From Rubricoccus marinus (GTDB lineage Bacteria > Bacteroidota > Rhodothermia > Rhodothermales > Rubricoccaceae), in NCBI RefSeq assembly GCF_002257665.1, contig NZ_MQWB01000001.1:618502-682501 (forward strand): a stretch of 64,000 bases of DNA, in the 5' to 3' direction. Below, piece by piece: positions 1 through 23,218 of this stretch; the stretch's first letter is position 1, and every line of letters begins with the position of its first letter. The notes under the pieces were generated by a model that was not told the origin of the DNA, searched no databases, and saw nothing but the letters and a program-made list of their open reading frames with translations. Both the position numbers and the translations under genes were made by a program.

Positions 1-1028
1 ACGAACTCGACGGTGCGGGTCGCGCCGACGGGCACGAGGACGGTGCTCTCGGGCCACTGGGCGCTGGCGGGGATCGGGCCGCCATCGGTCGCGACCGTTT
101 TCCACGCGTGGCCGTGGACGTGGATGGGGTGGTGGTCCATCGGCGAGAGGTTGCCGAAGCGGATCCGCACGCGGTCGTTGTGACCCACGACGAGCGGGGC
201 GGTCCCGGGGTAGGCCTGCCCGTTCATGGTGAGCAGGTTGAAGTCGCTCATCACGTTGGGGTCCGGGCGGCTCGTGCCCGGCTCCACGTACCACTCGTGG
301 AGCATGATCGCGATGTCGCGGTCCACGCCTCTGGCGCCAGAGGCCTTCGGGTGCACGATGAACATGCCCGTCAGGCCGAGCGCGATCTGCGTCATCTCGT
401 CGTGATGGGCGTGGTACATGAACGTCCCGTTCTGCTTGAGCGGGAACGCGTAGAGGAACGTCTCGCCCGGCCCGATCACGGGTTGGCTGAGACCGCCCAC
501 GCCGTCCATCCCGCTTGGCAGGAAGACGCCGTGCCAGTGGACCGTCGTTGGCGTGGACAGGTTGTTCGTGACGTAGATCCGCACGTCGTCGCCCTCGACG
601 CCTTCGAATGTGGGGCCGTGGACCTCGCCGTTGTAGCCCCAGCAGGTGGCGGTCAGGCCGGGCGCGAACGTGTGCTCCACCTCGCCCACGGTCAGGTGGT
701 AGACCCACGCACCGTCGTCGGCGCGGCGCCCGGTGATGGAGGAGCCGTTGGGGGTGTAGACGCGGGCGGGGCGGTCGCCCTGCCACTTCGTGGCGAGGGA
801 CTGGGGATTGGGGGCTGGGGACTGGAAAGCCGGCCGGGCGCCAGAGGCCTCTGGCGTGGTCGCGGAGGTGGGCGCCGCCTCTGGCGCGAGGGTGGTGTCG
901 CGGGCGGTGAGGGAGTCGGCGGCGGCTTCGGGGTCCCAGCGGACCGGGAGCGCGGCGGCGCGGCGGCCGCCGAGGGCGAAGCCGCCAATCGCGGCGGCGC
1001 CAGAGGCGAGGAGGTCGCGTCGGTTCAT
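1..1028 (-). CDS. multicopper oxidase, 3' end outside window
   Basis: Copper-dependent oxidase, probably periplasmic, likely oxidising Cu(I) or other substrates in copper tolerance. The N-terminus MNRRDLLASGAAA looks like a twin-arginine signal, as expected for an exported folded cuproenzyme. Copper-ligand motifs are visible: HWHG near residue 163, YHAHHDE near 204 and HPIHVHGHAW near 299. The final HCHxxxH motif and the C-terminus lie beyond position 1, so only about 342 residues are seen. The start is 11 bases after the stop of the TolC-like gene, so the two are probably cotranscribed. The segment at 797-824 encodes a Pro/Gln/Ser linker from a heptanucleotide repeat. Family assignment is secure; the exact substrate is not. 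Confidence 0.88.
   Translation of the reverse strand, partial: MNRRDLLASGAAAIGGFALGGRRAAALPVRWDPEAAADSLTARDTTLAPEAAPTSATTPEASGARPAFQSPAPNPQSLATKWQGDRPARVYTPNGSSITGRRADDGAWVYHLTVGEVEHTFAPGLTATCWGYNGEVHGPTFEGVEGDDVRIYVTNNLSTPTTVHWHGVFLPSGMDGVGGLSQPVIGPGETFLYAFPLKQNGTFMYHAHHDEMTQIALGLTGMFIVHPKASGARGVDRDIAIMLHEWYVEPGTSRPDPNVMSDFNLLTMNGQAYPGTAPLVVGHNDRVRIRFGNLSPMDHHPIHVHGHAWKTVATDGGPIPASAQWPESTVLVPVGATRTVEF
797..824. repeat. heptanucleotide tandem repeat inside the multicopper oxidase gene
   Basis: Four 7-base units of the form GGG[AG][CT]TG: GGGACTG, GGGATTG, GGGGCTG, GGGACTG. Read on the minus strand they encode a linker containing QSPAPNPQS before the first cupredoxin domain. The same unit type recurs between cysD and cysN/C (23219-23239), so this is a dispersed repeat class and not a chance low-complexity linker. 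Confidence 0.7.
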
Positions 1029-1039
1029 AGCGGTGCGGG

Positions 1040-2482
1040 TCAATGGCCCGCCTCGGGCGCGGGCATGGCGCCAGAGGCGGAGGGCAGGGCGGAGGCGCCG
1101 AGGTCGGGCATCCGGCCGGCGAGGAGGGCGTCGAGGTCGGTCCGGGCGTCCCAGTAGGCCGCGAGGGCGTCGGCGTAGCGTCGGGCAGCGTCGGCCTCGG
1201 CCTCTTGCGCGAGGAGCAGGCCGAAAACGCCGGTCTGCATGGCGTTGTACTGGCGGAGGGTCTGGGCCGTGAGGTCGGCGCGGAGCGCCAGGAGCACGCG
1301 TTGGTACTGGAGCGCGACGCGGCGCGTGGCGCCCAGCCGGGAGGCGAGCACGCGCGTGGCCGAGCGCACGTCGACGGCCGTCGCGGCGTAGTCGGCGCGG
1401 GCGCGGCGGAGCTCGGCGTGGAGGGCGGCGCGGCGGGCCTGGCCCTGGTCGAACAGGGGGAGCACGATCTCGGCCTCGGGGCCGGCTTCCCACTCGCCGT
1501 CCTCGCGTTCGAGTTCGCCGCCGAGTTCGAGGTCGGGCAGGATCGCAGCGCCTCTGGCGAGTCCGAGGCGCCCGGCGACGGCCTCGGCGTCGTAGCGGGC
1601 GGCCTGGAGCGCGAGGCTGGACTCGAGCGCGCGCGCTTCGAGCGCGGCCACGTCGAGCGTTTCGCCAGAGGCCTCTGGTGTGTCTGCCTCTGGCGAGACG
1701 GGTTGCGCCAGAGGCTCGTCGTCCGGGACCGGCATCAGGCGGCCACCCAGCCGGTAGTCGCTGGCGGAGAGCCCCATCGTGCGGGTCAGTCTCTCGCGCG
1801 ATTCCATCGCGGCCTGTTCGGCCAGGACGAGGTCCAGCCGGGTCCCTTCGTAGCGGGCCTGCTCGGCGAGCACGTCGGCGGCGGGGATCGTCCCGGCTTC
1901 GCGCAAGAGGAGCGCGGCGGTGTAGGCGGCCTCGGCGCGGGCGGTGATCTCGGTCTGGAACGACAGGCGGAGGCGGTCGGCCTGGGCGCGCGTGTAGGCG
2001 CTTCGGGTGCGTGCCGCGAGGTCGAGCACGGCCTCGGCCACGCGGACGCGCGCGGCGCCGTACTCGCTGCGGGCGACGCGCCGGCGCATCGGGATCCAGA
2101 GCACGTCCAGAAACTCGAAGGCGACGTTGAAGCCGAGGTCGGGCGCGCCGCCCTCGTCCAGCCCCCACAGCGCGCGTCCGCCGAACACGGGGTTGCCGAG
2201 CAGGCCGGCCTGGACAAGCGAGGCCTGGGCGACGCCGAGGTCTTCGTAGGTGGCCTGGAGCCGCCGGTTGTTCAGGAGCGCGATCTGGACCGCCTCGTCG
2301 GCCGAGAGCGAGTCCGCCAGAAGCCGCTCGACCGCGGCGTCGGCCTCGCGGTCGGCGTCGGCGTCCATTCGCCAGAGGACGGGCGCCTCGGCGCGGCCGT
2401 CGAGCGTGGTGCGGAGGTCCGCTTCGGCCTCGTGCGGCCGGACACCCGCGCAGCCGCTCGCAAGAAGGGCGAGGAGGAGCAA
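1040..2482 (-). CDS. TolC-family outer-membrane protein (copper efflux type)
   Basis: Outer-membrane channel component of a tripartite efflux system. The protein has a lipobox-type end of signal (LLALLASGC), then two long alpha-helical repeats rich in Ala, Arg and Leu with the typical QAALLNNRRLQATYEDLG-like opening and the repeated segment LALQAARYDAEA. The only in-frame start close to the signal is TTG at 2482, giving 480 residues but a signal with no basic n-region. The open frame runs far upstream through a repeat element without an ATG. An ATG at 2535 lies in another frame, so a frameshift or sequence error near 2490-2530 is possible. It sits between a DUF3347 protein and a multicopper oxidase, so copper export is the likely role. 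Confidence 0.78.
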   Translation of the reverse strand: MLLLALLASGCAGVRPHEAEADLRTTLDGRAEAPVLWRMDADADREADAAVERLLADSLSADEAVQIALLNNRRLQATYEDLGVAQASLVQAGLLGNPVFGGRALWGLDEGGAPDLGFNVAFEFLDVLWIPMRRRVARSEYGAARVRVAEAVLDLAARTRSAYTRAQADRLRLSFQTEITARAEAAYTAALLLREAGTIPAADVLAEQARYEGTRLDLVLAEQAAMESRERLTRTMGLSASDYRLGGRLMPVPDDEPLAQPVSPEADTPEASGETLDVAALEARALESSLALQAARYDAEAVAGRLGLARGAAILPDLELGGELEREDGEWEAGPEAEIVLPLFDQGQARRAALHAELRRARADYAATAVDVRSATRVLASRLGATRRVALQYQRVLLALRADLTAQTLRQYNAMQTGVFGLLLAQEAEADAARRYADALAAYWDARTDLDALLAGRMPDLGASALPSASGAMPAPEAGH

Positions 2483-2853
2483 GCCCGCGACGCCGCCGGA
2501 GCGGAAGCCCGGCCTCTGGCGCCGGAGCCGTGAGGCATAGCCGTGGCGAGGCGCTCTGCACCCCTCCCTCTGGTCTGGGAGAAGGGCGGCGCCGAAAGGA
2601 GGACCCGGGTTGCTCTCGCTCCCCCGACCGTCATTCCCGCGCAGGCGGGTATCCAGGATGGCGAGCGCCAGAGGCCCTCGCGCGCTCGAGCCGGTCAGGG
2701 AAACCGAGGACTGCGAGGAGCAGCACCCGGCGCGCGTCTGCGGCACTGCGGATCGGCTCGTGGGATCGCCCGGTACTCTGGATTCCCGCGTCCGCGGGAA
2801 TGACGCTGTAGGGGGAGGCGTGTCAGGAAGGGACGTGGAGGAGCTGAGAGTCG
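2483..2853. other. intergenic stretch with a REP-like inverted repeat
   Basis: This 371-base gap between the DUF3347 gene and the TolC-like gene holds the inverted repeat at 2629-2805 and three or four copies of the CGCCAGAGGC decamer family. No separate gene is supported. The long open frame crossing it on the minus strand has unnatural composition and overlaps the next gene. Confidence 0.6.
2629..2805. repeat. REP/MITE-like inverted repeat element
   Basis: A 28-base arm beginning CGTCATTCCCGCGCAGGCGG (2629-2656) is repeated in inverted, slightly diverged form at 2778-2805, ending GGGAATGACG. Each arm is itself a short hairpin (CCCGCGCAGGCGGG and CCCGCGTCCGCGGG). Arms of the form TCATTCCCGCG...GCGGGAATCCAG are a widely known dispersed element class in several bacterial phyla. 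The central ~120 bases carry a CGCCAGAGGC copy. No transposase is nearby, so the element would be non-autonomous. Confidence 0.75.
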
Positions 2854-3675
2854 TCATCCGCTGTGATCCATCGTCTCGTGGCTCATCGCGGGCGCGGGCA
2901 TCGCGCCAGAGGCGGGGGCGGCCTCTGGCGGGCCCATCCTCATGTCGTCCGCGCGGGCGGGGACGGCGGCGCCGCGCGTGCCGCAGGCCAGCATCCGAGA
3001 CCCGAAGTACGGGTTCTGCGTTTCGGTCCCGCGCTGGAGCCACACGCCGCCCTCGGGGAGGTCGGAGCGCATGCCGCAGGAGAACCGCGAGAGGCCGTAG
3101 CCCGCAGGCGCGCCGTGCGCCTCGACGAGGGCGACGAACGGGGCGCTAAGCGCGCCAAAAGCCTCTCGCGCCGCGTCCAGGTCTTCGGCGTCCGCAAGCA
3201 CGAACGCGTGCGTTTCCACCGCATCGACCTCGGCGCTGCGCATGTGCCAGAAGTGCGGGTCCGCCTCTGGCGCCTCCTCAGCGGCAAAGCTCCACGCGTC
3301 GGCAAAGGCCAGCGCGTGATCGGCGACACCCTCGAAGGCGCCGCGAGCGAGGGCGCTCTGGATGGCGAGGTAGGCGTCGAGCGCGTCTCCCAGAGCGGAC
3401 GGCGCGGCGGCGGTGTCGCCAGAGGCCTCTGGCGGCATCGGGGCGTGGCCGGCTGCAGCGTGGTCCGCCGGGGCGTGGCCCATCGCGGCGTGATCCGCCG
3501 GCATCGCGCCAGAGGCAGATCGACGCAGCGGGGCGGGGAGGACGGGCTGGGGCGCCCGCGCCAGAGGTGCGAGCGAGACGAAGGCCTCTGGCGAGGCGGG
3601 AGGCGCCGACTCCAATAGGGCGGGCGGCGCGGCGCACCCGGCGAGAACGCCGAGCGCGAGCAGAAAGCGGGACAT
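2854..3675 (-). CDS. DUF3347-domain copper-associated lipoprotein
   Basis: Predicted periplasmic lipoprotein of 273 residues. The signal MSRFLLALGVLAGC ends in a lipobox. Residues 60-85 are rich in Met and His (MPADHAAMGHAPADH) and the C-terminus ends MSHETMDHSG, both plausible copper ligands. The core from about residue 95 matches the DUF3347 pattern: an alpha-helical DAYLAIQSALARG segment, then CGMR, GGVWLQ and NPYFGSRMLACG. DUF3347 accompanies CusB-type metal efflux proteins. It lies upstream of the TolC-like protein and multicopper oxidase in the same direction. Copper binding is inferred from composition and neighbours. Confidence 0.85.
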   Translation of the reverse strand: MSRFLLALGVLAGCAAPPALLESAPPASPEAFVSLAPLARAPQPVLPAPLRRSASGAMPADHAAMGHAPADHAAAGHAPMPPEASGDTAAAPSALGDALDAYLAIQSALARGAFEGVADHALAFADAWSFAAEEAPEADPHFWHMRSAEVDAVETHAFVLADAEDLDAAREAFGALSAPFVALVEAHGAPAGYGLSRFSCGMRSDLPEGGVWLQRGTETQNPYFGSRMLACGTRGAAVPARADDMRMGPPEAAPASGAMPAPAMSHETMDHSG

Positions 3676-3795
3676 GATCCTGAGGGCAGGCGGACGCCAG
3701 AGGCGACCGCAGAGCAGGGCCGGGCGACGTGCCCGGACGACCAGCGCCGCGTACGGGCGCGGCGGAACGACGCGTCACGGCGACGCGCGGAGCCC

Positions 3796-4227
3796 TCAGG
3801 TCAGGAACCGACCGAGCAACAGGTGGACGCGGAGCCGGGCCTCTGGCGGAGGGGCGGGCTCGGGCGTCGGGGCTGGCGCCTCGTCGGTCGCCAGAGGCGC
3901 TTCGGAGACCGCTGCCAGCGGCACACTTGGAGGCGCGTCAACCGTCAGCGTGGGCACGACCGGCGCGGGGGCGTCGGCGGCGCAGCAGGCGGAGAGGCAG
4001 TCGGCGTCAGGCTCCGGCTCAGGCGCCGGGGGCTCGTCGTGACACGGTGCGGCCTCTGGCGCGGGCGCCATGTCCATCGCGCCGTGGTCCATCGCCGCTT
4101 CGTGCGTCTCGGCCTCTGGCGCCAGCGGCTCCGCGTGCGGGCACAGCGCGCTCGCGGCGGGGCCTGCGACGAGCGCGAGGACCAGCAGCGTGGCGAGGCG
4201 AGACGAACGGCGGAACGTGTGGAGCAC
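3796..4227 (-). CDS. small secreted Met/His/Cys-rich protein, probable metal binder
   Basis: A 143-residue protein with an N-terminal signal (HTFRRSSRLATLLVLALVAG). The mature part carries CPHAEP, a DHGAMDM cluster, CHDEPP and CLSACC, and is otherwise Pro/Ala/Glu-rich and probably disordered. No domain is recognised. As first gene of the copper cluster, 120 bases before the DUF3347 gene, it could buffer or sense periplasmic copper; this is inference. Decamer-derived peptides such as EPLAPEAE and EAPLATDEAP make up part of its length. Confidence 0.65.
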   Translation of the reverse strand: MLHTFRRSSRLATLLVLALVAGPAASALCPHAEPLAPEAETHEAAMDHGAMDMAPAPEAAPCHDEPPAPEPEPDADCLSACCAADAPAPVVPTLTVDAPPSVPLAAVSEAPLATDEAPAPTPEPAPPPEARLRVHLLLGRFLT

Positions 4228-4241
4228 CAGGGGGAGCCGGG

Positions 4242-4249
4242 TATCTTGA
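4242..4249 (+). promoter_or_regulatory. putative -7 promoter box TATCTTGA
   Basis: Matches the Bacteroidota -7 pattern TAnnTTTG in six of eight bases and belongs to a set of similar boxes in this window. Placing the transcription start about 12 bases after the box start gives a leader of about 22 bases before the ATG at 4276. No clear -33 TTTG is seen. Confidence 0.4.
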
Positions 4250-4275
4250 CGACGAACGTACTACCCCGCTCTGCT

Positions 4276-5343
4276 ATGTGCCGGTTCCTCTCTCTCCTTT
4301 GCCTCTTCTCCCTCGTGCCTCTGGCGTCTCCCGCCGGAGCGCAGGACGCGCCAGAGGACCCCGTCGTGCTCGTCATCCACGGCGGCGCCGGGACCATCAC
4401 GAAGGCCAACATGACCGACGCGCAAGAGGCCTCGATTCGCGCCTCGCTGGAGGCGGCGCTGAGGGCGGGCCACGCCGAGATCGAAGCGGGGCGCCCGGCG
4501 CTGGACGCCGTGGTCGCCGCGATCCACCTCATGGAAGAGGACCCGCAGTTCAACTCCGGCCGCGGCGGCGTCTTCGCCGCCGACGGGACGGTCCGCCACG
4601 ACGCGTCCATCATGGACGGCGCGACGGGCATGGCCGGGGCCTCGTCCAACACGCAGCACGTGCGCCACCCGATCTCGCTCGCGCGGGCCGTGATGGAGAA
4701 CAGCCCGCACGTGCTCCTGACCGCCGAAGGCGCCGAGGAGTTCGCGCTGCAGCAGGGCCTCGAAACCGTGCCCAACACGTACTTCCACACCGCGAGCCGC
4801 CGCGCCGCGCTGGACCGCGTGCAGCAGCGTGAGCGCGAGGCCATGAACGACGCCACCGGCGCCAACGGCGTGCCTCTGGCGCCAGAGGCGGGCACGCCCG
4901 CATGGATCGCGCCCGAGGACTGGCAGATGAAAGGGACCGTCGGCGCCGTCGCGCTGGACAACGGCGGGCACCTCGCGGCCGGCACGTCCACGGGCGGCAT
5001 GACCAACAAGCGCTGGGGCCGCGTCGGCGACAGCCCCATCATCGGCGCGGGGACCTACGCCATGGACGAGACCTGCGGCGTGAGCGCGACCGGCCACGGC
5101 GAGTACTTCATCCGCCTCGCTATCGCGCACGACATCGCGGCGCGTGCGAAGTACCTCGGCGAGACCTGCGCCGAGGCCGCCGACCACGTGATCAACACCA
5201 CGCTGACCGAGGCCGGCGGGACCGGCGGCGTCATCGTGCTGGACGCCTCTGGCGAAGCGGGCCTCCCGTTCAACACGGAGGGCATGTACCGCGGGACCAT
5301 CACGCGCTCCGGCAAGGTGATGACGGCGATGTACGGCGAGTAG
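4276..5343 (+). CDS. isoaspartyl peptidase / plant-type L-asparaginase, exported
   Basis: N-terminal nucleophile hydrolase that cleaves isoaspartyl dipeptides and L-asparagine. Signal peptide MCRFLSLLCLFSLVPLASPAG, then the family opening VVLVIHGGAGTI, the FNSGRGGVF loop and the self-cleavage site MKGTVGAVALD, in which the Thr becomes the catalytic nucleophile of the beta subunit. GTSTGGMTNKRWGRVGDSP and GAGTYA follow as in the family. Length 355 residues is typical. The ATG at 4276 is chosen because it begins the signal; the frame stays open far upstream without protein-like sequence. The LAPEAG insert at 4872-4889 is a decamer palindrome within the linker before the cleavage site. Confidence 0.92.
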   Translation: MCRFLSLLCLFSLVPLASPAGAQDAPEDPVVLVIHGGAGTITKANMTDAQEASIRASLEAALRAGHAEIEAGRPALDAVVAAIHLMEEDPQFNSGRGGVFAADGTVRHDASIMDGATGMAGASSNTQHVRHPISLARAVMENSPHVLLTAEGAEEFALQQGLETVPNTYFHTASRRAALDRVQQREREAMNDATGANGVPLAPEAGTPAWIAPEDWQMKGTVGAVALDNGGHLAAGTSTGGMTNKRWGRVGDSPIIGAGTYAMDETCGVSATGHGEYFIRLAIAHDIAARAKYLGETCAEAADHVINTTLTEAGGTGGVIVLDASGEAGLPFNTEGMYRGTITRSGKVMTAMYGE

Positions 5344-5347
5344 CGCC

Positions 5348-5851
5348 TCAGGCGCCAGAGGCCTCTGGCGCGTGGGCCGCTCGGTAGACTGCGATCGCCT
5401 CGGCCACGCGCTTGAGGTCTCCTGAGACGCGCGTGTGTGGGACATCGAAGGTCTCAGATTCCGTCCGCACCGTTAGCGTTTCTGCGCCGTCCTTCCATTG
5501 GACCTGTGTTTCCAGCACGGACGGCCAGGCGAGCCGTTTCGTGGTGCCTGCGGCTGCGAGGTACATCCCCTCGGGGGTGAGGGTGACCGCGGGGTGGTGC
5601 GCGAGCGCCCACCGGTACTTCGCACGGTACGCGAGAGCTGTCGCGATAAGGATCAGGAGCCCGAAGAGGAAAGCTTGTGTTGGGCTTGAGATCGTTCGCC
5701 CGATGTGCGGCGGCTCGCTAACGAAAACGCTCGGTGTGAGGACCATGACGCCACCCAGTGCTGTCGCCATGCAGGCGAGCAGCGTCGCGGGAAAGAGGCT
5801 TGCGCGCGAGTCCGCGAAACGGGTCGTGACAAACGGATCGACGGTCGGCAC
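5348..5851 (-). CDS. hypothetical membrane protein with PH-like C-terminal part
   Basis: Two hydrophobic segments (SLFPATLLACMATALGGVMV and FLFGLLILIATALAY) are followed by a soluble part with features of small bacterial PH-like domains (VTLTPEGMYLAAAG, AWPSVLETQVQW). No function can be assigned. The open frame extends to 6055, but the extra 68 residues have poor composition and overlap the hrcA upstream region, so the GTG at 5851 is preferred, giving 167 residues. The start is uncertain. The C-terminus HAPEASGA is encoded by the decamer palindrome at 5353-5370, four bases from the convergent peptidase gene. Confidence 0.6.
   Translation of the reverse strand: MPTVDPFVTTRFADSRASLFPATLLACMATALGGVMVLTPSVFVSEPPHIGRTISSPTQAFLFGLLILIATALAYRAKYRWALAHHPAVTLTPEGMYLAAAGTTKRLAWPSVLETQVQWKDGAETLTVRTESETFDVPHTRVSGDLKRVAEAIAVYRAAHAPEASGA
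5353..5370. repeat. inverted decamer pair CGCCAGAGGCCTCTGGCG
   Basis: An 18-base perfect palindrome, the outward arrangement of the dispersed decamer, located 10 bases past the stop of the isoaspartyl peptidase gene and inside the 3' end of the convergent gene. Position at the end of two convergent genes would suit a bidirectional terminator, but there is no T-run. Confidence 0.6.
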
Positions 5852-6102
5852 GAAGAGCGGTGTAGGAGCTAAGGGGCGGAGGCGAGGTCGCAAAATATCC
5901 GGCAGGCCCTCGGTGTTGGTTTCGCCAGAGGCCGACCTGCTGTGGACCGCTCGCCAGCGGCTCCGCCAGAGGCCCTCGGTCAAAAAGGTGCCAAACGTGC
6001 GCGCCTGCGCATGCCGTTCACAACTGCGGCCGCGTGTTGTCGTTGTTTGGGCCACAGCGTCGTTTGGCCGATATGTTCAGCCCTCACGACTGCGAGGACC
6101 CG

Positions 6103-7197
6103 ATGCCCCAGCCGCTCCACACCCCTTCTGCCTCTGACCGCGCCTCGCTGCGCGGCGGGAATCCGTTCGGCCTCTCCGAGCGCGAGCGGGACGTGCTCGG
6201 TCGGATCGTGCAGCGGTTTATCCAGAGCGCGTCGCCCATCGGCTCCAAGGCCCTCGCGGACGACTTCGAGCTGTCCAGCGCCTCGCTCCGCAACACGATG
6301 CGGACGCTGGAGGAAGCGGGTTTCCTCGGGCACCCGCACACGTCGTCCGGCCGCGTGCCCACGCAGCAAGGCTACCGGCTGTACGTGGATGAGCTGATGG
6401 ACGTGCGCGGCCTCTCCTCGCGCGACGCCGACCTCTTGCGCGACACCGTCACGCGGCGCCTGGGTGACCTGGAGGCCGTCGCGCGGGACTCCAGCCGCTT
6501 GCTCGGCCGGCTCGCGCAGCTCCTCGGCGTTGTCCTTACGCCGCGTCTCTCGACGGGCGTGTTGGACCGCCTCGAAGTCGTGCCGCTCTCCTCGCACCGC
6601 GTCCTCTTCGTACTCGCCATCCGCGGCGGCTTCGCCCGGACCGTGCAGGCCGAGGTCGAGATCCCGGTCGATACGAACCACCTGGACCGCGTGGTGCAGC
6701 GCCTCAACGAGCGACTGAGCGGCCTCACGCTAGACGAGATCCGCCAGACCGGCGCCGACCGCCTCCACGACCTCGCCTCTGGCGACCAGACCGGCGTCGT
6801 CCGCGTGGTCCTGCGCGAGGCGCCCGACCTTTTCCGCGACCCGTCCCCCGAGCGGCGCGCGTCGATCAGCGGCGCGCAGCACATTGTGAGCCAGCCCGAG
6901 TTCTCCGCGCCCGAGACCGTCCGCGAGGTCGTCGAACTGGCCGAGAGTGAGGACGTGGTCGTGCACCTGCTCGAAACGCCGGCGCTCGTGGACCCCTCCG
7001 CGCCCGAGAAAGCCGTGGTCCTCATCGGCCGCGAGACCGAGCACTCCAGCGGTGCCTACTCCATCGTTGCCGCGCCGTACCGGCAGGGCGGCGCCAGAGG
7101 CGCCGTGGCCGTGATCGGCCCCACCCGCATGGACTACCCCCGCGCCGTCGCCCTCGTGGAGCACGTCGCGGGCCTCCTCACCGATTCCCCCGACTAA
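6103..7197 (+). CDS. hrcA: heat-inducible transcription repressor HrcA
   Basis: Repressor of class I heat-shock genes that classically binds CIRCE operators. The N-terminal winged helix is visible (LSERERDVLGRIVQRFIQS, IGSKALADDFELSSASLRN, GRVPTQQGYRLYVDEL), and the GAF-like dimerisation region and terminal GPTRMDYPRAVALVEHV motif are present. The ATG at 6103 is chosen because GAGGA lies five bases upstream; an in-frame ATG exists at 6073. Length 364 residues is slightly longer than usual. It is followed after 11 bases by grpE. I did not find a convincing CIRCE inverted repeat upstream. Confidence 0.93.
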   Translation: MPQPLHTPSASDRASLRGGNPFGLSERERDVLGRIVQRFIQSASPIGSKALADDFELSSASLRNTMRTLEEAGFLGHPHTSSGRVPTQQGYRLYVDELMDVRGLSSRDADLLRDTVTRRLGDLEAVARDSSRLLGRLAQLLGVVLTPRLSTGVLDRLEVVPLSSHRVLFVLAIRGGFARTVQAEVEIPVDTNHLDRVVQRLNERLSGLTLDEIRQTGADRLHDLASGDQTGVVRVVLREAPDLFRDPSPERRASISGAQHIVSQPEFSAPETVREVVELAESEDVVVHLLETPALVDPSAPEKAVVLIGRETEHSSGAYSIVAAPYRQGGARGAVAVIGPTRMDYPRAVALVEHVAGLLTDSPD

Positions 7198-7208
7198 CCT
7201 CACCTCGG

Positions 7209-7880
7209 ATGCCGACCGACCCCAACGTCCCGACCTCCGGGCCTCTGGCGCCAGAGGCGCAGCCCGCTGGAACGCCCCCCGCCGGGGCGCAACAGGACGG
7301 CCCCGGCGCATCGGTCCGAGACGACGTACGCAACCAGATGAAACAGGACGACCCCGCCGACGTGGCCGTAAACGCCGTGGACGAGCTGGCCGAGCAGGCC
7401 ACCGAAATGGAGCGCCTCCGCGAGGAGAACAAGTCGCTCCAGGACCAACTCCTCCGCCGCGCCGCCGAGTTCCAGAACTACCGCCGCCGGACCGACGAGC
7501 AGCGCAGCGCCGATGAGGCCCGCGCCCGCGATTCCATTTTGGTCCCCTTCCTGGAGATCTACGACGATCTCCGCCGCTCGCTCGACGCCTCGCGGCGGCA
7601 GGGCAAGCAGGACGGCGAGGGCACGTCGCCAGCGTTCGAAGCACTCGCCGAGGGCATCGAGCTCGTGTTCAAGAAGTACGGCAGCACGCTGGAGAAGATG
7701 TGCGTCGAGCGCATCGAGGCCACCGGGCAGCCGTTCAGCGAGGACCTCCACGAGGCGATGATGCAGCAGCCCGCTCCCGACGCCGACACGCCTTCGGGCA
7801 CCGTTCTTGCGGAAATCCAGCCCGGATACCGCATCGGCGACCGCATTCTGCGCCACGCGCGCGTCATCGTCGCCGGATAG
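7209..7880 (+). CDS. grpE: nucleotide exchange factor GrpE
   Basis: Co-chaperone that releases ADP from DnaK. The N-terminal 55 residues are disordered and contain PLAPEA from a decamer palindrome (7241-7258). The long coiled coil ([33 protein letters not shown]) and the beta-domain ending [19 protein letters not shown] and [10 protein letters not shown] are typical. Total 223 residues. It lies between hrcA and dnaJ in one operon; dnaK is not in the window. Confidence 0.95.
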
Positions 7881-7915
7881 CGCCGACCTCCGCCTCGCGC
7901 CTCTGGCGCACCCCT

Positions 7916-9082
7916 ATGGCTACCGAGACCACTGACTTTTACGAGATCCTAGGCGTCGAGCGCGACGCGTCGCCAGAGGCCATCAAGAAGGCCTACCGCA
8001 AGCGCGCGATGGAGTCGCACCCGGACCGCAACCCGGGCGACGCCGAGGCAGAGCGCCGCTTCAAGGAGGCGGCCGAGGCGTACGAAGTCCTCTCCGATGC
8101 CGACAAACGCGCCCGTTACGACCGGTTTGGCCGCCAGGGACTCGGCGGCGCGGCCTCTGGCGGAGGCGCGGGATTTAACGACATCTCGGACATCTTCTCC
8201 GCCTTCTCCGACATCTTCGGGCAGGACCCGCGCTTCAGTGGGGGCGGCTTCGGAGGCGCCCGGCGCCGTCGCGGCCAGGGCCGTCCGGGCTCGGACCTCC
8301 GCGTCCGGCTGGAACTCACGCTCGAAGAGATCGCCGAAGGCGTGGAGCGCCAGCTCAAGCTGCGCAAGTTCATCGCCTGCGAGGTGTGCGATGGGTCGGG
8401 TGCCGAAAACGGAGACGCGGGGTTCGAAACGTGCCCCACGTGCGCCGGCCAAGGCGAGGTCCGCACCGTCACCAACTCCATTCTCGGCCAGTTCGTCAAC
8501 GTCCAGCCGTGCCCCACGTGTGCGGGTGAGGGCCGGATCGTCGTAGACAAGTGCTCGGTCTGTGAGGGAGAGGGCCGCACCAAGGGCGAGGAGACGATCA
8601 CGGTCGAAGTGCCTGCGGGCGTCTCGGGCGGGCACTACCTCCAGATCCGTGGGGCCGGCAACGCGGGCGTCCGTGGCGGCGCACCCGGCAACCTCCGCGT
8701 CGAGATCAACGAAACGCCCCACGAGGACTTCGCCCGCGACGGCCTCGATGTGCTCCACGACCTGCACCTCTCGTTCCCCGATGCCGCGCTCGGCACCGAG
8801 GTGGACGTGCCCACCCTCCGCGGCCGCGCCAAGCTCCGCATCGATCCCGGTATCCAGAGCGGGCGCGTTCTCCGGATGCGCGGACGGGGCCTCCCCGAGA
8901 TCGGCGGCGGCCGCAAGGGAGACCAGATGGTCCACGTCCACGTGTGGACGCCCCAAACCCTCTCGCCGGCGCTTACGGAAGCGTTAGAGCAGCTCCGTTT
9001 GGAGCCCGAGATGACGCCCAAGCCAGAGAGCCGCGAGAAGCGCTCCTTCTTCTCGCGCGTGAAAGACGCCTTCGCGGGCTAG
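7916..9082 (+). CDS. dnaJ: chaperone protein DnaJ
   Basis: Hsp40 co-chaperone stimulating DnaK ATPase activity. The J domain begins [13 protein letters not shown] with HPD near residue 35, a short Gly/Phe-rich region follows, and four zinc-binding motifs are seen at about residues 155-225: [24 protein letters not shown] and CSVCEGEG. The C-terminal substrate domain has [17 protein letters not shown] and [10 protein letters not shown]. Length 388 residues is normal. The ATG at 7916 follows grpE by 35 bases; the gap carries a decamer copy. Part of hrcA-grpE-dnaJ. Confidence 0.96.
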
Positions 9083-9164
9083 CCTCTGGCGGAACGGCCC
9101 TGGTCACGCCAGAGGCCTCTGGCGCGGCGGAATCCCCGCCGCGCATCGGGCGGTACAGGGGGGC

Positions 9165-9710
9165 ATGGACGCCACGCCCCACGACCCCGCCCCGACCGAT
9201 CAGGCCGCCGAGCGGCCCGGCTCTGTCCCCGCTGACGGGGAGAGCCTGCGCGAAACGCTCCGCCAATGGGCCTCGCCGGTCGTGGTGGTGACCTGCGTCG
9301 GCGCCAGAGGCGCGCGGGGGGCCACGATCGGCTCGTTCGCGAGCGCGAGCCTCGCGCCGCCGCTCGTGACGTTTAACGTGACGCACGGCACGCGCTTCCA
9401 CGAAGCGCTAGAGACGGCGCCGAGCTTTGCGGTCCACCTCCTCGCGTCGGAGCAGGCGGACACAGCCGCCCGCTTCGCCATTCCAGATCTAGAGGACCAG
9501 CTGGAAGACATTGCGCACTGGCCCACTTCGCGCGGCCTGCCTCTCTTGGACGGCACGCTCGGGATTCTTCTCTGCCGACCGCACGCGCGCGTGGAGATCG
9601 GAGACCACACGCTGGTTGTCGGTCGCGTGGAAGAGATCGTGCCCGGGCGCGAGGGCGACCCACTGCTCTACCTCCAGCAGTCGTATCGCGGCGTCGGAGC
9701 GGAGGTCTAA
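9165..9710 (+). CDS. flavin reductase-like FMN-binding protein
   Basis: Belongs to the flavin reductase / styrene monooxygenase reductase-like split beta-barrel family, which reduces FMN or FAD with NAD(P)H. Visible features are WASPVVVVTCVGARGARGATIGSFASASLAPPLVTFNV, a FAVHLLASEQ segment and the terminal LLYLQQSYRGV. Length 181 residues fits. The partner oxygenase is not nearby, so the physiological substrate cannot be inferred. The stop overlaps the convergent TIGR02757 gene by a few bases. Confidence 0.85.
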   Translation: MDATPHDPAPTDQAAERPGSVPADGESLRETLRQWASPVVVVTCVGARGARGATIGSFASASLAPPLVTFNVTHGTRFHEALETAPSFAVHLLASEQADTAARFAIPDLEDQLEDIAHWPTSRGLPLLDGTLGILLCRPHARVEIGDHTLVVGRVEEIVPGREGDPLLYLQQSYRGVGAEV

Positions 9711-10579
9711 GCCTCTGGCGCCAGAGGAGAGTTGTCTGTGTCGGGCATCGGTTGTCCGTCGTACGCGCCGAGGCCGAATAAGGCGTAGTCGTAGCGGCAG
9801 GGATCGCTGGGGTCCATCGCGCGGCAGGCGGCGGTGAGCTCAAGCGCCGCGCGCCAATCGTCGTACGAGCGCTGAAGCAAGCCAAGCCGGCGGGCTTGCC
9901 GCCCAGTGTGCACATCTAAGGGGAGAAGCAACTGCGACGGCGCGATGCCGCGCCAGAGGCCGAAGTCAACGGGGCCGGGCCGCACCATCCAGCGCATGTA
10001 CATCGAGAGGCGCTTGCAGGCGCTGCCCGTCTCTGGCCGCGCGAGGTGCTTCTTCAGCCGCGTCGGCGTGCCCGGAACGATGGTCATAAGCGTCTGGGAC
10101 AAGCCTTGCAGCGCTGGGCCGATGTGCGGAGCCTCTCGCGGGAGGTGCGCAAGCGCGAGGGACTCGATAGAACCGTAGCGCTTGAGAACGGCTTGGAGCG
10201 CGAGCGTGAGCGCGACCGCGTCGCCAGAGGTGAACGTGCGGTGCTTGAAGCCGTCCAGCCTGTGGCCGTCGCGAGAGGCGTCAAACGTGCGCACGAACCG
10301 CGCAGGGGCGTAGTCCATGCGTTCCATCAGCTCCGCCAGCTTGGCGAGCATGATGTTGCGGCGTCCCCACGCGAGAACGGCCGCAAAAAGCCCGGCCACC
10401 TCTCGGTCGGCCGGGCTCTCGAACGCGTGCGGGATGGAGACGGGATCGTCTCCTATAAATGCTGTCCGCTCGTAGCGCCCGACGAGCGCGTTCAATTCTG
10501 CGCGCAACGCCTCTGGCGGAGGCGGAACGGCAGGGAACGACGCGGCGGGGTCCTTCGAAGCAGGCAGCGGTCGGCTCAC
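9707..10579 (-). CDS. TIGR02757 / DUF2400 family protein
   Basis: Conserved protein of unknown function common in Bacteroidota. Diagnostic segments are SIPHAFESPADREVAGLFA, AWGRRNIMLAKLAELMERMD, CKRLSMYMRWMVR, PLDVHTGRQARRLGLL and RYDYALFGLGAYD. Length 290 residues is about 30 longer than usual because of an N-terminal Pro/Ala-rich stretch and a C-terminal PLAPEA added by the decamer palindrome at 9711-9727. The start codon overlaps the DUF4342 stop (ATGA), indicating cotranscription. Confidence 0.88.
   Translation of the reverse strand: MSRPLPASKDPAASFPAVPPPPEALRAELNALVGRYERTAFIGDDPVSIPHAFESPADREVAGLFAAVLAWGRRNIMLAKLAELMERMDYAPARFVRTFDASRDGHRLDGFKHRTFTSGDAVALTLALQAVLKRYGSIESLALAHLPREAPHIGPALQGLSQTLMTIVPGTPTRLKKHLARPETGSACKRLSMYMRWMVRPGPVDFGLWRGIAPSQLLLPLDVHTGRQARRLGLLQRSYDDWRAALELTAACRAMDPSDPCRYDYALFGLGAYDGQPMPDTDNSPLAPEA
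9711..9727. repeat. inverted decamer pair at convergent gene ends
   Basis: GCCTCTGGCGCCAGAGG immediately follows the flavin reductase stop and forms the last codons of the convergent TIGR02757 gene. It can form an 8-bp stem, so a role in 3'-end formation is possible. Confidence 0.55.
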
Positions 10580-11049
10580 TCCTCGTCGGCGGGGCGGCCC
10601 ATCGTCTTCGGCGCGGCACCAGAGTCGTCGGACTCCTCGCCAGAGGCCTCTGGCGTGTTCACGTTGTGCACGTCCTCGCCTGCGGCGGTCGCGCGAGCCT
10701 TTTCGGCCTCTTGCGCGGCGACGGCCTCGGGGTCGCGCTCGACCTCCAACGTCACGTCGGCCACGAGGGCGGCGGCGGCGCCCACGGCAGCGAGCATCGG
10801 GTTGAGAAGGAGTGCCGCGGCGCCAAAGCCGGCCCCGACGGTGAGGGGAATCTCGAAGAGCGTCTTCTCCCCCTTGCGGAGCGAGATGCGACGCACGTTG
10901 CCTTCTTCAATCAGCTCGCGCACCTTGTCGACGATCTGGTTGGAGGCCACCTTGACCTCTTCGACGGCGACAGCGGCGCGGTCCTTGGCGGTATCGGCGA
11001 GGCGGGACGCCTCATCTTGGACGTCTTTCAGGGAAGGGCGGGAGCTCAT
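10576..11049 (-). CDS. DUF4342-domain protein
   Basis: A 157-residue protein. The core (KVRELIEEGNVRRISLRKG, KTLFEIPLTVGAGFGAAALLLNP, AAAALVADVTLEVE) matches DUF4342, a small domain with one hydrophobic hairpin. An amphipathic N-terminal helix and an acidic C-terminal tail containing TPEASGEES (decamer-derived) flank it. The ATG at 11049 is chosen because upstream sequence in the frame is not protein-like. It is the first gene of a two-gene unit with the TIGR02757 gene. Function unknown. Confidence 0.8.
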   Translation of the reverse strand: MSSRPSLKDVQDEASRLADTAKDRAAVAVEEVKVASNQIVDKVRELIEEGNVRRISLRKGEKTLFEIPLTVGAGFGAAALLLNPMLAAVGAAAALVADVTLEVERDPEAVAAQEAEKARATAAGEDVHNVNTPEASGEESDDSGAAPKTMGRPADEE

Positions 11050-11417
11050 GGGCGTGTGGGGGAGAGGGGAGCGCTCTCCACGGCCAAGCGCGCCGTTTTG
11101 TTTCGGATGTGGAGGAAGAGACACCCCACCCGTTTCGAATCGGAACGGTCGCCAGAGGCCCAGTTCTGCGCCCTCTGACGGGCATTCGGGCATGCGTGGG
11201 CATTCGGAAGGGCCGCAAGCGCAGGAAAACGCACCCTTTGGACTGTTTATACCGCTGATGTCGGGGTGGCACGCGCCAGAGGCCTCCTTCGGCACGGCTC
11301 TGGCAAGAGGCCTCATCACGAACGGGACGCCACCCCACGGCGCCCAGATTGAATCCGGGTCCACTCTGGGCCCTTCACTCCGGGGCGCCACGCTCCAACC
11401 AATACACCCCCAATATC
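11050..11417. other. divergent upstream region with a direct repeat
   Basis: This 368-base gap separates the DUF4342 gene from the first pilin-like gene. It holds single decamer copies around 11151 and 11273 and a 10-base direct repeat GGGCATTCGG at 11180-11189 and 11198-11207. No gene or RNA is recognised. Confidence 0.5.
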
Positions 11418-11837
11418 ATGGGCCAGCAGCAGCTCCTCCTCCTCGTCCTCGGCATCGTCATCGTCGGCCTCGCGGTCGTCGTCGGCATCCAGGCATTTGG
11501 CGAGAACCAGCAGAAATCCAACATCGACGCGATGACCAATGACGGCATCCGCATCGCATCTGACGCCCAGGCCTGGGCGCTCAAGCCTCAGGCATTCGGC
11601 GGTGGTGAGGGCAACTTCTGCTCGAACGGTGCCGCCGATGACGACACCCCTATTACTCTCGCTCTCCTCGGCGTTGACGCTACGAACGTGAATGGTACGT
11701 ACACGCTCGCAAACACTGCCTGCACGGGTATCACCATCACCGGTGCTAGCGGCAGCAGCGATGCTGAAGTCGTCGTGACGGTTGTGGGTACGGACGCTGA
11801 TGACATCAGCACGGCGGTCTTCCCTGACGGTCAGTAG
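11418..11837 (+). CDS. pilin-like membrane-anchored protein A
   Basis: A 139-residue protein starting MGQQQLLLLVLGIVIVGLA, a very short leader followed by a 22-residue hydrophobic helix, then a soluble domain with two Cys (FCSNG, NTACTG). The layout resembles type IV pilins or pseudopilins, with a possible cleavage after Gly2, but there is no Glu at +5 and no FTLIE motif, so processing is uncertain. The next gene is a paralogue. The gene contains no decamer copies and its codon use looks less GC-biased than neighbours. Function unknown. Confidence 0.7.
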   Translation: MGQQQLLLLVLGIVIVGLAVVVGIQAFGENQQKSNIDAMTNDGIRIASDAQAWALKPQAFGGGEGNFCSNGAADDDTPITLALLGVDATNVNGTYTLANTACTGITITGASGSSDAEVVVTVVGTDADDISTAVFPDGQ

Positions 11838-11880
11838 GACCAAAGGGGCAGTACGAGCACACTTGGTGTTCAGCCTTTCC

Positions 11881-11908
11881 GGCCCCCAACTGCTAGCAGT
11901 TGGGGGCC
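11881..11908 (+). terminator. 28-base perfect palindrome, probable terminator
   Basis: Arms GGCCCCCAACTGCT and AGCAGTTGGGGGCC are exactly complementary and located 44 bases after the first pilin-like gene. No T-run follows, so it may attenuate transcription into the second gene or protect the upstream mRNA. Confidence 0.6.
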
Positions 11909-11954
11909 GATCTGTAAACAGAGTCAATTCCGCCGGGCATCACCCCTTGCACTC

Positions 11955-12374
11955 ATGGGACAGCAACAGCTATTTCTTCTCGTTCTCGGACTCGTCATCG
12001 TCGGCCTCGCTGTCGTCGTCGGATTGCAGGTGTTTGAGGGCTCGAACCGTCAGAACCAAGCTGATGACGTTCTGAACCGAAACGTCCGCCTCGCGATGGA
12101 CGCCGTGAGTTGGCGCGCCCGAGCGACCGTTCATGGCGGCGGCGGAAACGGCTCCTACGCGCCTCTCGCGGACGGCGGATTTGAGGTCATGGGGGTAGAA
12201 GGAAACGTGTACGCTACCGAACACGCCATTCTCAGCGCGACTGGCACAACGCTCGAGATCGTCGGCGTGAGTTCCGCGTCTCGCGGCGTCGGCGCGTACG
12301 TCCGCGTCGAGGGCAACCGTATTGCGGAGTCCTACAGCGCCATCGACGGGTCCATCACGCTGCCGTCCGATTGA
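11955..12374 (+). CDS. pilin-like membrane-anchored protein B
   Basis: Paralogue of the preceding gene, also 139 residues, starting MGQQQLFLLVLGLVIVGLA and keeping the VVVG.Q.F continuation. The soluble parts are diverged (SWRARATVHGGGGNGSY, VEGNRIAESYSAIDG) and this copy has no Cys pair. Tandem duplication with conserved membrane helix and diverged head suggests two subunits of one filament or surface assembly; this is inference. No assembly genes such as an ATPase or prepilin peptidase are in the window. Confidence 0.7.
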   Translation: MGQQQLFLLVLGLVIVGLAVVVGLQVFEGSNRQNQADDVLNRNVRLAMDAVSWRARATVHGGGGNGSYAPLADGGFEVMGVEGNVYATEHAILSATGTTLEIVGVSSASRGVGAYVRVEGNRIAESYSAIDGSITLPSD

Positions 12375-12388
12375 CGGCCTGAGCTAGC

Positions 12389-12404
12389 GCCTCTGGCGCC
12401 AGAG
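12389..12404. repeat. inverted decamer pair between convergent genes
   Basis: GCCTCTGGCGCCAGAG lies 15 bases after pilin-like gene B and 20 bases before the end of the convergent manC gene, followed by another single decamer half. Position fits a bidirectional 3'-end hairpin. Confidence 0.55.
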
Positions 12405-12423
12405 CCTGCACTCCGCCAGAGGC

Positions 12424-13539
12424 TCACGTGAGGTGATCCAGTCCGTGCACGCCGAGGTAGTCCACTACGTCCTTGACGCGCTGCGCACTCTCTCGGTGGC
12501 AGACGAGGACCGCGTCCTCCGCGTCCACCACGACCGCGTCCTGTAAACCCACGAGGACCAACATCCGGCCCGGGCCCGCTTTGGCGTAGGACCGGCTGGT
12601 GTGGTGGAAGATCACATCGCCCTCGGCCACGTTGCCCGCCTCGTCCTTCTCGGCCACGGCGTGCACTGCGCGCCAATCGCCGACATCGCTCCAGCCGAAC
12701 GCGCCGGGGACGACCCACACGTGGCGGGCCTTTTCCATGATGCCCACGTCGATGCTGACCTTGGGCGTCCGCTCGTAGGCGCGCGTGATGGCCTCTTGCG
12801 CAGGGCTGCTCGCCAGAGGCGCGAACAGGGCGTGGATCTCGGGGAGGTGTTCCTCCATCTCGGCAAGGATGGCGTCGGCTCGCCAGATGAACATGCCGGA
12901 GTTCCAGAGGAAGTCGCCGGCTTCGACGAACCGCTCAGCAGTCGCGAGGTCAGGCTTTTCGGCGAACGTCATCACGCGGTGCGCCTCTGGCGTGGCCGCG
13001 GGGCCGTCGTCGCTTACGCCATCGGTCTCGCCGTCGGCGTCGTACTGGATGTAGCCGTAGCCCGTCTCGGGGTGCGTAGGGCGGACGCCGATGGTGACGA
13101 GTGGGAACGCGCCAGAGGCCCCGTCCGCCTCTGGCGTCTCGGCGCGGCGGACGGCTTCGCGAACGACCTCTTGGAAGCGCTTGACGTTTTGGACGAGGTG
13201 ATCCGCGGGGAGGATCAGCATCGTCGCGTCCGGGTCCAGGCCGTGCAGGCGCGCGGCGGCAAAGGCGATGCACGGCGCGGTGTTCTTCGCGATCGGCTCG
13301 GCGAGGATGTTCTCGGCCGGGACAAAGGGAAGGTGCTCCTGCGTCTGCTCTACGTAGTCGGCGTGGGTGACGACAAAGATCCGCTCGGGCTCGACGAGGC
13401 CCTGGAGCCGGGCGGCGGTGTTCTGGATCAGCGAGGTGGGGCCGAGGACGTCGAGGAACTGCTTGGGCGTGGCGCGGCGGCTGCGCGGCCAGAAGCGGCT
13501 ACCGACGCCGCCGGCCATGATCACGGCGTAGAGGGACAT
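12424..13539 (-). CDS. manC: mannose-1-phosphate guanylyltransferase
   Basis: Makes GDP-mannose from mannose-1-phosphate and GTP for polysaccharide synthesis. The nucleotide-binding signature AVIMAGGVGSRFWPRSR is at the N-terminus, followed by PKQFLDVLG, AEPIAKNTAP, ILPADHL, TGYGYI, FAEKPD, LWNSGMFIW and the GWSDVGDW motif. Length 371 residues fits the short form without an isomerase domain. The ATG at 13539 is preferred to 13566 because it begins at the beta strand before the signature. Decamer inserts give PEADGASGAF near residue 140 and ATPEAH near 185, both in surface loops. Confidence 0.93.
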   Translation of the reverse strand: MSLYAVIMAGGVGSRFWPRSRRATPKQFLDVLGPTSLIQNTAARLQGLVEPERIFVVTHADYVEQTQEHLPFVPAENILAEPIAKNTAPCIAFAAARLHGLDPDATMLILPADHLVQNVKRFQEVVREAVRRAETPEADGASGAFPLVTIGVRPTHPETGYGYIQYDADGETDGVSDDGPAATPEAHRVMTFAEKPDLATAERFVEAGDFLWNSGMFIWRADAILAEMEEHLPEIHALFAPLASSPAQEAITRAYERTPKVSIDVGIMEKARHVWVVPGAFGWSDVGDWRAVHAVAEKDEAGNVAEGDVIFHHTSRSYAKAGPGRMLVLVGLQDAVVVDAEDAVLVCHRESAQRVKDVVDYLGVHGLDHLT

Positions 13540-13562
13540 AAGGGGGCGGTCAGAGGGGACGG

Positions 13563-13570
13563 CCAAGATA
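13563..13570 (-). promoter_or_regulatory. putative -7 promoter box TATCTTGG for manC
   Basis: On the minus strand the box TATCTTGG begins at 13570, about 31 bases before the manC ATG. It matches TAnnTTTG in all but one position of the specified bases. A decamer copy lies just upstream in the place where a -33 element would be expected. Confidence 0.4.
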
Positions 13571-13631
13571 GGGAGCGGGCCTCTGGCGCTCGTGCGTCGA
13601 CAGAGGCCTCGCGCGCGGCCACCCGCAGCCG

Positions 13632-14246
13632 CTATTCCGTGCCGGTGGCCTCGGGGAAGTAAAAACTCTCCAGCATCGCGAGGTACTCCGCCAGCGGCGG
13701 CAGGCCGACCTCGGCGCGGCGCGCGTCCACGGTCTCCGGGTCCGCCAGAGGCGACACGAGGATCTCGCCCTCGGCGCCAAACCCGGCCTGCGTGCCATAC
13801 ACCTGCGGTTCGCCCTTGCCGACGAGCACGCGGTCGAGGAGGAGCGCGTAGCTCTGGCCGTGGAGGTCGCCCGAACGGTAGGCGGCCTCGACGAGCGGGA
13901 GAAGCCGCTCCTGCGTGGCGGTGTCGCCGTGCTGGAGGATCATGAACGCGGCGTTGCTGCCGTCCATCCCCACGAGCGCCGCGCCGGGCCAGCCGTGCAC
14001 ATCCACGATCTCGACAACGCGCGCGAGGTGCGCCGCGTCGGTCGCGACCATTTCGGCGAGGAGCGCGCTGTCGGGCTCGGCGATGCCGGCTTCGATCAGC
14101 CTCTGGCGGATGGCCTGGTCGGCCTCGTACATACTCAGCAGCTCGGAGCGGAGCGCGGGGTCTGTGGCGCCAGAGGCCTCTGGCGAGGACTGCGCGGCGG
14201 CCGGGAGGGCGAGGATGAAGGCGAGAGCGAGGAGGATGGCTTTCAT
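13632..14246 (-). CDS. secreted DUF6624-domain protein
   Basis: A 204-residue exported protein (signal MKAILLALAFILALPAAAQ). The mature domain has the DUF6624 pattern: RSELLSMYEADQAIRQRL, VHGWPGAALVG, AAFMILQHGD, LLLDRVL and QVYGTQAG. Function is unknown; such domains are common in Bacteroidota secretomes. A decamer pair encodes the SSPEASGATD stretch just after the signal cleavage site, a tolerant position. Confidence 0.8.
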   Translation of the reverse strand: MKAILLALAFILALPAAAQSSPEASGATDPALRSELLSMYEADQAIRQRLIEAGIAEPDSALLAEMVATDAAHLARVVEIVDVHGWPGAALVGMDGSNAAFMILQHGDTATQERLLPLVEAAYRSGDLHGQSYALLLDRVLVGKGEPQVYGTQAGFGAEGEILVSPLADPETVDARRAEVGLPPLAEYLAMLESFYFPEATGTE

Positions 14247-14335
14247 GGGAGCGGGGGTGTGGGGTGTGAAAAAGGCAGAGCGATGGCAGGGAAGGCGGGA
14301 TTCCGCTTCCTGACCCGGGGGTGTTGGGGCCTTGG

Positions 14336-15106
14336 TTAGAGGCTGAGCCGGTCTCGCAGGGCGGCCGCGCGGCGGCGCGAGAACTCGACCTCGGTGCCGT
14401 CGGTCAGGCGGACCAGAAGGCCGCCGTTGAGGGCGTCATCGATCCGCGCGATGTGCGCCAGTCCGACGAGTTGCGCGCGGTTGGCGCGGGCGAAGTGTGC
14501 GGGGTCCAGGCGGTCTTCGAGCGCACCCAGCGAGCGGAGCACGAGCGGCGACTCTTCGCGCCCATCAGCGCCGGTGAACACGAAGCGGGTGTAGTTGCCG
14601 ACCGACTCGAACAGCCGCACGTCGCCCAGGCGGACGAGGTGCATCCGGGCGCCGTCCTTGACGAACACGCGGGAATCGGGACCGAGCGGCGCCTCTGGCG
14701 AGGTGGCGGCGCCAGAGGCCTCTGGCGTAGCGTCGCGCCGCGAGAGGCGGGCGACGGCCTCGGCCATACGGGCGGGCTCGACGGGCTTGAGCAGGTAGTC
14801 CAGCGCGCTGACCCGGAAGGCCTCCAGGGCGTGCTCGTCGTAGGCGGTCACAAAGACGACCTGGGGCGCGGCGTCCAGGCCCGCGAGCCATTCGAAGCCG
14901 GTCCGGCCGGGCATCTGGATGTCGAGGAAGACCACGTCGGGTGCCTCGCCAGAGGCGGCCAGGCGGGCGAGTGCGGCGTCGGCCTCGTCGGCGCTGCCGG
15001 CTTCGGCGACGATCTCTACGCGGGGGTGATCCCCCAGGAGCGCGCGCATCTCGCGCCGCGCCAGAGGCTCGTCGTCTACGATCAGGGCGCGGAGGGTCTC
15101 AGGCAT
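14336..15106 (-). CDS. LytTR-family response regulator
   Basis: Cytoplasmic regulator of 256 residues. The receiver domain starts LRALIVDDEPLARREM with phospho-acceptor Asp in VVFLDIQMPG and the switch residues VTAYDEHALEAF and YLLKPVEP. After a decamer-rich linker (TPEASGAATSPEAPLG) the LytTR DNA-binding domain follows: HLVRLGDVRLFESVGNYTRF, RSLGALEDRL and HFARANRAQLV. The start overlaps the kinase stop by eight bases, so the two are translationally coupled partners. Confidence 0.92.
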   Translation of the reverse strand: MPETLRALIVDDEPLARREMRALLGDHPRVEIVAEAGSADEADAALARLAASGEAPDVVFLDIQMPGRTGFEWLAGLDAAPQVVFVTAYDEHALEAFRVSALDYLLKPVEPARMAEAVARLSRRDATPEASGAATSPEAPLGPDSRVFVKDGARMHLVRLGDVRLFESVGNYTRFVFTGADGREESPLVLRSLGALEDRLDPAHFARANRAQLVGLAHIARIDDALNGGLLVRLTDGTEVEFSRRRAAALRDRLSL

Positions 15107-16193: not shown

Positions 16194-16485
16194 CGGGTCG
16201 GCGGGTGACAGGAGGAGGCTACCGCGCCGGGCCTCTGGCGTCGCGGCGAAAGGGACGAGCGGTGCGAGGCCGTGATAAGCGGTGCGGCCTCCACCTCTAG
16301 CGCCAGAGGCGGAGGCCGCACCGCTCCGTGGCGACCCGCTGCGTCCGCTCGCCCTACGGTCGCGGACCCTGTCCCCCTCGGAGGGGGGACAGAAGAGATC
16401 GCCGTTCCAGGCGCATCTCTTCAGGGAGCTCTCAGAACGCAGCGGAGCCCGGCCTCTGGCGCCAGAGGCCCGGGCCGGCTTGCTT

Positions 16486-16709: not shown

Positions 16710-16714
16710 GCAAC

Positions 16715-18103: not shown

Positions 18104-18105
18104 TT

Positions 18106-18241: not shown

Positions 18242-19180
<939 letters not shown>

Positions 19181-23210: not shown

Positions 23211-23218
23211 AGGGACGT

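Follow-up and report, generated by a model that had tools for sequence, protein, structure and literature searches.

The stretch of DNA analysed here (the window, 64 kb of Rubricoccus marinus) contains an isoaspartyl peptidase gene holding an 18-bp dyad, which is formed by two opposed, overlapping copies of the decamer GCCTCTGGCG (Table 1). Comparison with relatives of the family Rubricoccaceae (Rhodothermota) places this dyad within an 11-residue lineage-specific insertion, where the R. marinus protein reads ANGVPLAPEAGTPAWIAPEDWQMK and that of the same-genus genome G046 reads AAGVPM-----------PEDWQMR; the proteins of G048 and G050 also lack the insertion. The LAPEAG peptide, listed for the isoaspartyl peptidase by an earlier note on this DNA, is present, and the decamer encodes peptides in several other proteins of the window. 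Among these, the LytTR regulator has a linker for which G046 shows a different sequence in the alignment.

Table 1. Copies of the decamer, the proteins that carry them and pilus-related genes (window positions, except those preceded by contig C1)
Feature	Position	Strand	Remarks
GCCTCTGGCG copies and overlapping dyads	1..64000	both	233 decamers; 15 '+-' and 12 '-+' dyads
Isoaspartyl peptidase / asparaginase-2 family gene (Asparaginase_2), holds the 4872-4889 dyad	4276..5343	+	Pfam PF01112, 4.9e-104
18-bp dyad GCCTCTGGCGCCAGAGGC	4872..4889		decamer (+) 4872-4881, (-) 4880-4889, common CG; encodes PLAPEA
Dyad, PLAPEA near GrpE N-terminus (gene 7209-7880)	7241..7258		PF01025, 9e-39
C-terminal PLAPEA tail, DUF2400 protein	9710..9727	-	extension absent from G046, G047, G050
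Decamers encoding TPEASGAATSPEAPLG, LytTR response regulator (gene 14336-15106)	14681..14728	-	between receiver and LytTR domains
Dyad encoding ASGARG (EASGARG), MutS2 (gene 38126-40654)	39119..39136
EASGASGNPE peptide, decamer at 51197-51206	51194..51223	+	protein called MazG by the earlier note
PilB- and PilC-like proteins	C1:207580-210874
PilT-family ATPase (8.4e-95) and PilQ-like secretin	C1:693848-700006		just beyond the window

The 233 exact matches of GCCTCTGGCG in the window (120 on the plus and 113 on the minus strand) contrast with dinucleotide shuffles, in which the mean was 0.62 and the highest count 4. In the 4.43-Mb genome we counted 14,176 copies (7,049 and 7,127 by strand) against 61 for the reversed-word control, corresponding to one per 313 bp, 3.2/kb or about 3% of the bases, and one of the marks of DUS/USS systems is the gross over-representation of such a fixed word, about 10 bp long. 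Fine-scale analyses of placement, frames and dyads covered 780 kb of contig C1, on which 569 genes were called from codon usage with our own script, their start positions being approximate. The decamer is evenly spread over these 780 kb, with 16 to 59 copies in each 10-kb block. The small contigs C2-C5 contain none of the four bases (G+C 0) and are apparently N-masked. Two 18-bp dyads compared with 2.9 million viral contigs gave no match, and in a literature search the GCCTCTGGCG string was absent from papers on uptake sequences.

The density of GCCTCTGGCG is three times higher in intergenic than in coding DNA (8.37 versus 2.78/kb), with a peak directly 3' of stop codons, where it reaches 31/kb in the first 20 nt, and with 15.3/kb in convergent gaps. 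Within genes, the interval 30-90 nt from the start has 5.5 and 4.1/kb, compared with 2.7/kb in mid-gene, and the density is hardly raised at the C-terminus; the clustering in termini and linkers described earlier is partly true. Together with 128 dyads lying at most 80 nt 3' of the stop codons of the 569 genes, these densities correspond to the enrichment in permissive DNA and the inverted pairs at gene ends that characterise DUS/USS systems. Among one-letter variants of the decamer, those changed at positions 2, 8, 9 and 10, and most of those changed at 5 and 6, are near background. Over-representation, at 5 to 19 times expectation, is seen for A or T at position 1, T at position 3, G or C at position 4 and T or A at position 7. 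From this position-wise pattern the recognised core appears to be approximately C--CT-GCG, and the graded tolerance, as judged from variant counts, looks more like the reading of a site by a protein than like equal decay by mutation. Separately, two words in the 780 kb look like tolerated variants: GCCTCTTGCG, with 133 copies, is 19-fold above expectation and GCCGCTGGCG, with 274 copies, 9-fold, and the second of them includes the larger part of the G046 word.

Single copies that form no dyad make up about 80% of the total. Coding DNA has 39 and 50 overlapping dyads at offset 8, against about 3 for other offsets (13-17 times chance), and DNA outside genes has 136 and 64. Their extension is all-or-none, a full right-hand partner being present in 272 of 1,055 intergenic copies, and the symmetry ends at the decamer edge, with arms beyond it not above chance, for which reason a template-switch origin was rejected. 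The 8 nt that follow gene-end dyads contain a mean of 1.2 T, versus 1.1 beside coding dyads, and with no T-tract we also rejected classical intrinsic termination as the sole function of the dyads. In the 780 kb, 23 dyads start at the base immediately 3' of a stop codon.

The all-or-none dyads and their frequency after stop codons would suit an abundant protein that binds the chromosome at these sites, probably as a dimer, for instance a nucleoid organiser or a global regulator; the gene-end dyads would then act as RNA hairpins as well. We regard this as unlikely, since the dyads are not followed by the U-tract of classical terminators, most copies stand alone, many are found in mid-gene, and a change of word within one genus (see below) would require the specificity and thousands of sites to shift together; in addition, we know of no regulator with about 14,000 near-perfect sites. 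The overlapping dyads speak instead for an uptake word, since they match those described for the DUS of Simonsiella muelleri, 1,294 in number, which were taken to hint at recognition by a dimer (PMC3630211).

In the 569 proteins the decamer leaves its mark in all six reading frames, as had been claimed from the sequence, but over a 14-fold range: ASG 607, PE 464, PLA 347, ARG 264, RQR 112 and LW 43, the LW frame being 14 times rarer than the ASG frame. The exact decamer spells 607 of the 872 ASG and 464 of the 587 PEA tripeptides, and holds half of all TCT serine codons and most AGA arginine codons. When 122 proteins were compared with their G046 orthologues, the counts (R. marinus:G046) were 155:33 for ASG, 132:39 for PEA, 55:6 for ASGA, 61:6 for APEA, 24:1 for LAPEA, 11:0 for PLAPEA, 25:2 for EASG and 15:0 for PEASG, and an unbiased ranking of all tripeptides is headed by ASG, PEA, SGA, ARG, APE and PLA. 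RQP and RQL, which are frames of the G046 word, are instead enriched in G046 proteins. The proteome-wide signature proposed in the earlier note is thus confirmed, on a far larger scale than it stated, and all the peptides it named were found. Dyads within genes encode nearly always PLAPEA, ASGARG or PEASG; of the peptides predicted for palindromic pairs, LAPEA and ASGARG are seen, whereas LWRQR occurs in no called gene of the window and its frame accounts for 1 of the 89 coding dyads in the 569 genes. The sites fall at poorly conserved positions, with a residue identity of 48% versus 72%, and their flanks have 56-63% identity versus 70%, out to 7 residues. With frames of small or flexible residues favoured and coding density three-fold below intergenic, these values support the idea that the element is imposed on the DNA and that proteins tolerate it. 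The idea also withstands the comparison proposed against it, namely the same peptides at the same positions in relatives, since all four residues are shared with the sister at 36 of the 320 gap-free sites.

The origin of coding copies was followed in 401 decamers from genes with G046 orthologues, with random positions as control. In 320 cases (80%; random 93%) the decamer aligns to G046 without gaps, in 19 (4.7%; random 0.9%) it lies wholly inside an insertion of its own lineage, in 27 (6.7%; random 2.3%) it touches a gap, in 12 it faces a gap in its own protein (random 1.1%) and in 23 (5.7%; random 2.4%) it belongs to a terminal extension. Substitution is the main route of decamer origin, and insertions are about five times over-represented. 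That the element lengthens several proteins is therefore true for a minority of sites, including the dyad at 4872-4889, and not for the large gap-free majority. Inserted residues amount to 699 in R. marinus proteins and 404 in those of G046, and decamer-bearing runs make up 324 of the 699, so that they could account for the whole excess insertion length of the lineage. Among insertions of at least 5 residues, 23 of 46 in R. marinus carry the decamer, versus 1 of 20 in G046 carrying the G046 word, which is unlinked to G046 insertions. Dyads lie in insertions more often (6 of 26) than single copies do (19 of 349). The last two comparisons would favour a mobile mini-element inserting decamer or dyad copies, which we consider very improbable given the gap-free majority, the lack of extended dyad arms beyond chance and the density in inserted DNA, which at 9.1 decamers/kb is about that of intergenic DNA (8.4/kb), as expected for unconstrained DNA. 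Because of this density, the insertions may be a permissive landing ground and not the product of a decamer-inserting process. Decamer-bearing insertions are also not expected from point mutation and drive alone, which counts against the reading of GCCTCTGGCG as an uptake word (see below).

In the same-genus genome G046, GCCTCTGGCG has 99 copies (control 101), and a comparable enrichment appears nowhere else in the 114 genomes of the order. The relatives are rich in other words: GCTGGCGG has 8,020 copies in G046 (control 1,599) and 7,454 in G050 (control 2,023), and CCGAGGCGGG has 1,778, 1,369 and 1,030 copies in G047, G048 and G049 (controls 140, 59 and 100). Each word is at about background level in genomes using another, and GCCTCTGGCG, GCTGGCGG and CCGAGGCGGG are species-specific dialects. 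All three words, in six genomes, contain GGCG, in line with the common core of DUS/USS dialects, but with a G+C content of about 70% this is weak evidence. In small samples of G044 and G045, GGATCGGG/CCCGATCC is over-represented (12 versus 0.6 in 14.9 kb) and may be a further dialect, of the genus g3. A GCAGGTTGG repeat in the order-mate G030 (segment positions 8043-8202) was rejected as a genome-wide word, being a local tandem array. The G046/G050 word GCTGGCGG is one letter from E. coli Chi, which would speak for a Chi-like or segregation (KOPS-like) word; the words of the other relatives differ, however, and GCCTCTGGCG is strand-balanced in every 100-kb block (217/217, 172/153 etc.) as it is genome-wide, so that we rejected this possibility, to which we attach hardly any probability, for want of strand polarity.

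The very high density, the gain of decamers mostly by substitution and the alternate words, which related species also have for HIP (PMC4390886), recall HIP1, a word that a methylation- or repair-directed mutation bias would create and keep, with or without a function. Such an origin seems improbable for GCCTCTGGCG, as HIPs are palindromes around a 4-6 bp methyltransferase site, whereas the unit here is an asymmetric decamer found mostly in single copies, and as the accessible part of the same source does not name strong enrichment 3' of stop codons or in convergent gaps among the features of HIP. Moreover, a search of the C5 class alone (PF00145) gave no methyltransferase match in the R. marinus genome, although its relatives have them.

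Concerning genes for competence and pili, ComEC is present in nine of nine family genomes. It is common among bacteria without uptake words, and ComEC and pilus genes do not discriminate, because they are found too in species for which no uptake sequence is known. A type IV pilus-like cluster (C1:690227-700006), about 7.7 kb past the window end, encodes three unassigned proteins with a hydrophobic N-terminus (possible pilins), the PilT-family ATPase, two further unassigned proteins and the PilQ-like secretin. The unassigned proteins of this cluster are candidate receptors; no ComP homologue or ComP-like receptor was identified, and pilins went mostly undetected. A second GspE-type ATPase and two pilins lie in a genome-specific secretion/pilin stretch (C11:11398-22776). 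This stretch looks recently acquired, consistent with its 2 decamers in about 9.7 kb, versus about 31 predicted at the genome mean, a scarcity that we count in favour of an uptake word. Against such a word, recognisable type IV pilins (PF07963) are found only on this decamer-poor contig and in G043, and in none of the dialect-bearing relatives, and the T2SSE ATPase has no match in the G046 MAG, although contig C64 of that MAG breaks off 189 bases beyond the matched portion of the cluster. A literature search found no uptake or competence report for any member of the Rubricoccaceae, and none on uptake sequences in Bacteroidetes/Bacteroidota.

The asymmetric decamer, the dialects, the permissive placement, the inverted pairs at gene ends, the overlapping dyads, the frame bias and the pilus genes fit a DUS/USS-like word, and in our view it is an even question whether GCCTCTGGCG is such an own-DNA recognition word, in Rhodothermota. 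In the mechanism proposed, DNA with GCCTCTGGCG would be preferred by a receptor on the cell surface, probably a type IV pilus minor pilin, and word-bearing DNA would be taken up and recombined in more often. Chance mutations toward the word would then be driven up in frequency, bringing the genome near saturation, with proteins absorbing the word where they can. A dimeric receptor might be the reason for the overlapping dyads, and relatives would have drifted to other words, leading to partial sexual isolation. To our knowledge, such self-DNA tags are proven so far in two unrelated bacterial families only. More tentatively, R. marinus and its relatives may have the first DNA-uptake-sequence system known from bacteria other than Neisseriaceae and Pasteurellaceae. 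This system of the Rhodothermota would comprise at least three dialects in one family, the highest density known, dimer-read dyads and measurable protein lengthening by motif-bearing insertions. Since gene orientation and position bias (PMC2346458) and the dialects of Neisseriaceae DUS (PMC3630211) are already published, the peptide signature is an expected consequence of uptake words; new here are the word, its density and dialects in the phylum, and the link with lineage-specific insertions.

If GCCTCTGGCG is an uptake word, self-recognising natural transformation would have evolved a third time, in a phylum for which we found no report, and the family would offer a natural experiment on the way in which, within a single genus, a dialect shift rewrites thousands of sites. 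Otherwise, some process can write a 10-bp word into about 3% of a genome and visibly alter its proteome. Either way, annotation and phylogeny of proteins from these bacteria need to take account of residues that the DNA dictates.

Among known systems, the USS of Pasteurellaceae is sparser than GCCTCTGGCG. It shares with it coding copies biased by orientation and position, is unrelated in sequence and phylum, and is not reported to form overlapping dyads in the accessible part of the source (PMC2346458). Cyanobacterial HIP1 and the alternate HIPs are alike in their very high density and the alternate words of relatives, but HIP words are short methyltransferase-linked palindromes (PMC4390886), in contrast to an asymmetric word in a genome with no C5 methyltransferase match. 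The DUS of Neisseriaceae belongs to another phylum and reaches at most about 2.5/kb (K. oralis, 5,918 in 2.4 Mb), compared with 3.2/kb here, where most close pairs overlap by 2 bp and no ComP homologue was identified. In both cases, however, there is an asymmetric decamer in thousands of copies, with species dialects, inverted pairs after genes and overlapping dyads (in Simonsiella and Kingella; PMC3630211), and R. marinus likewise has type IV pilus genes.
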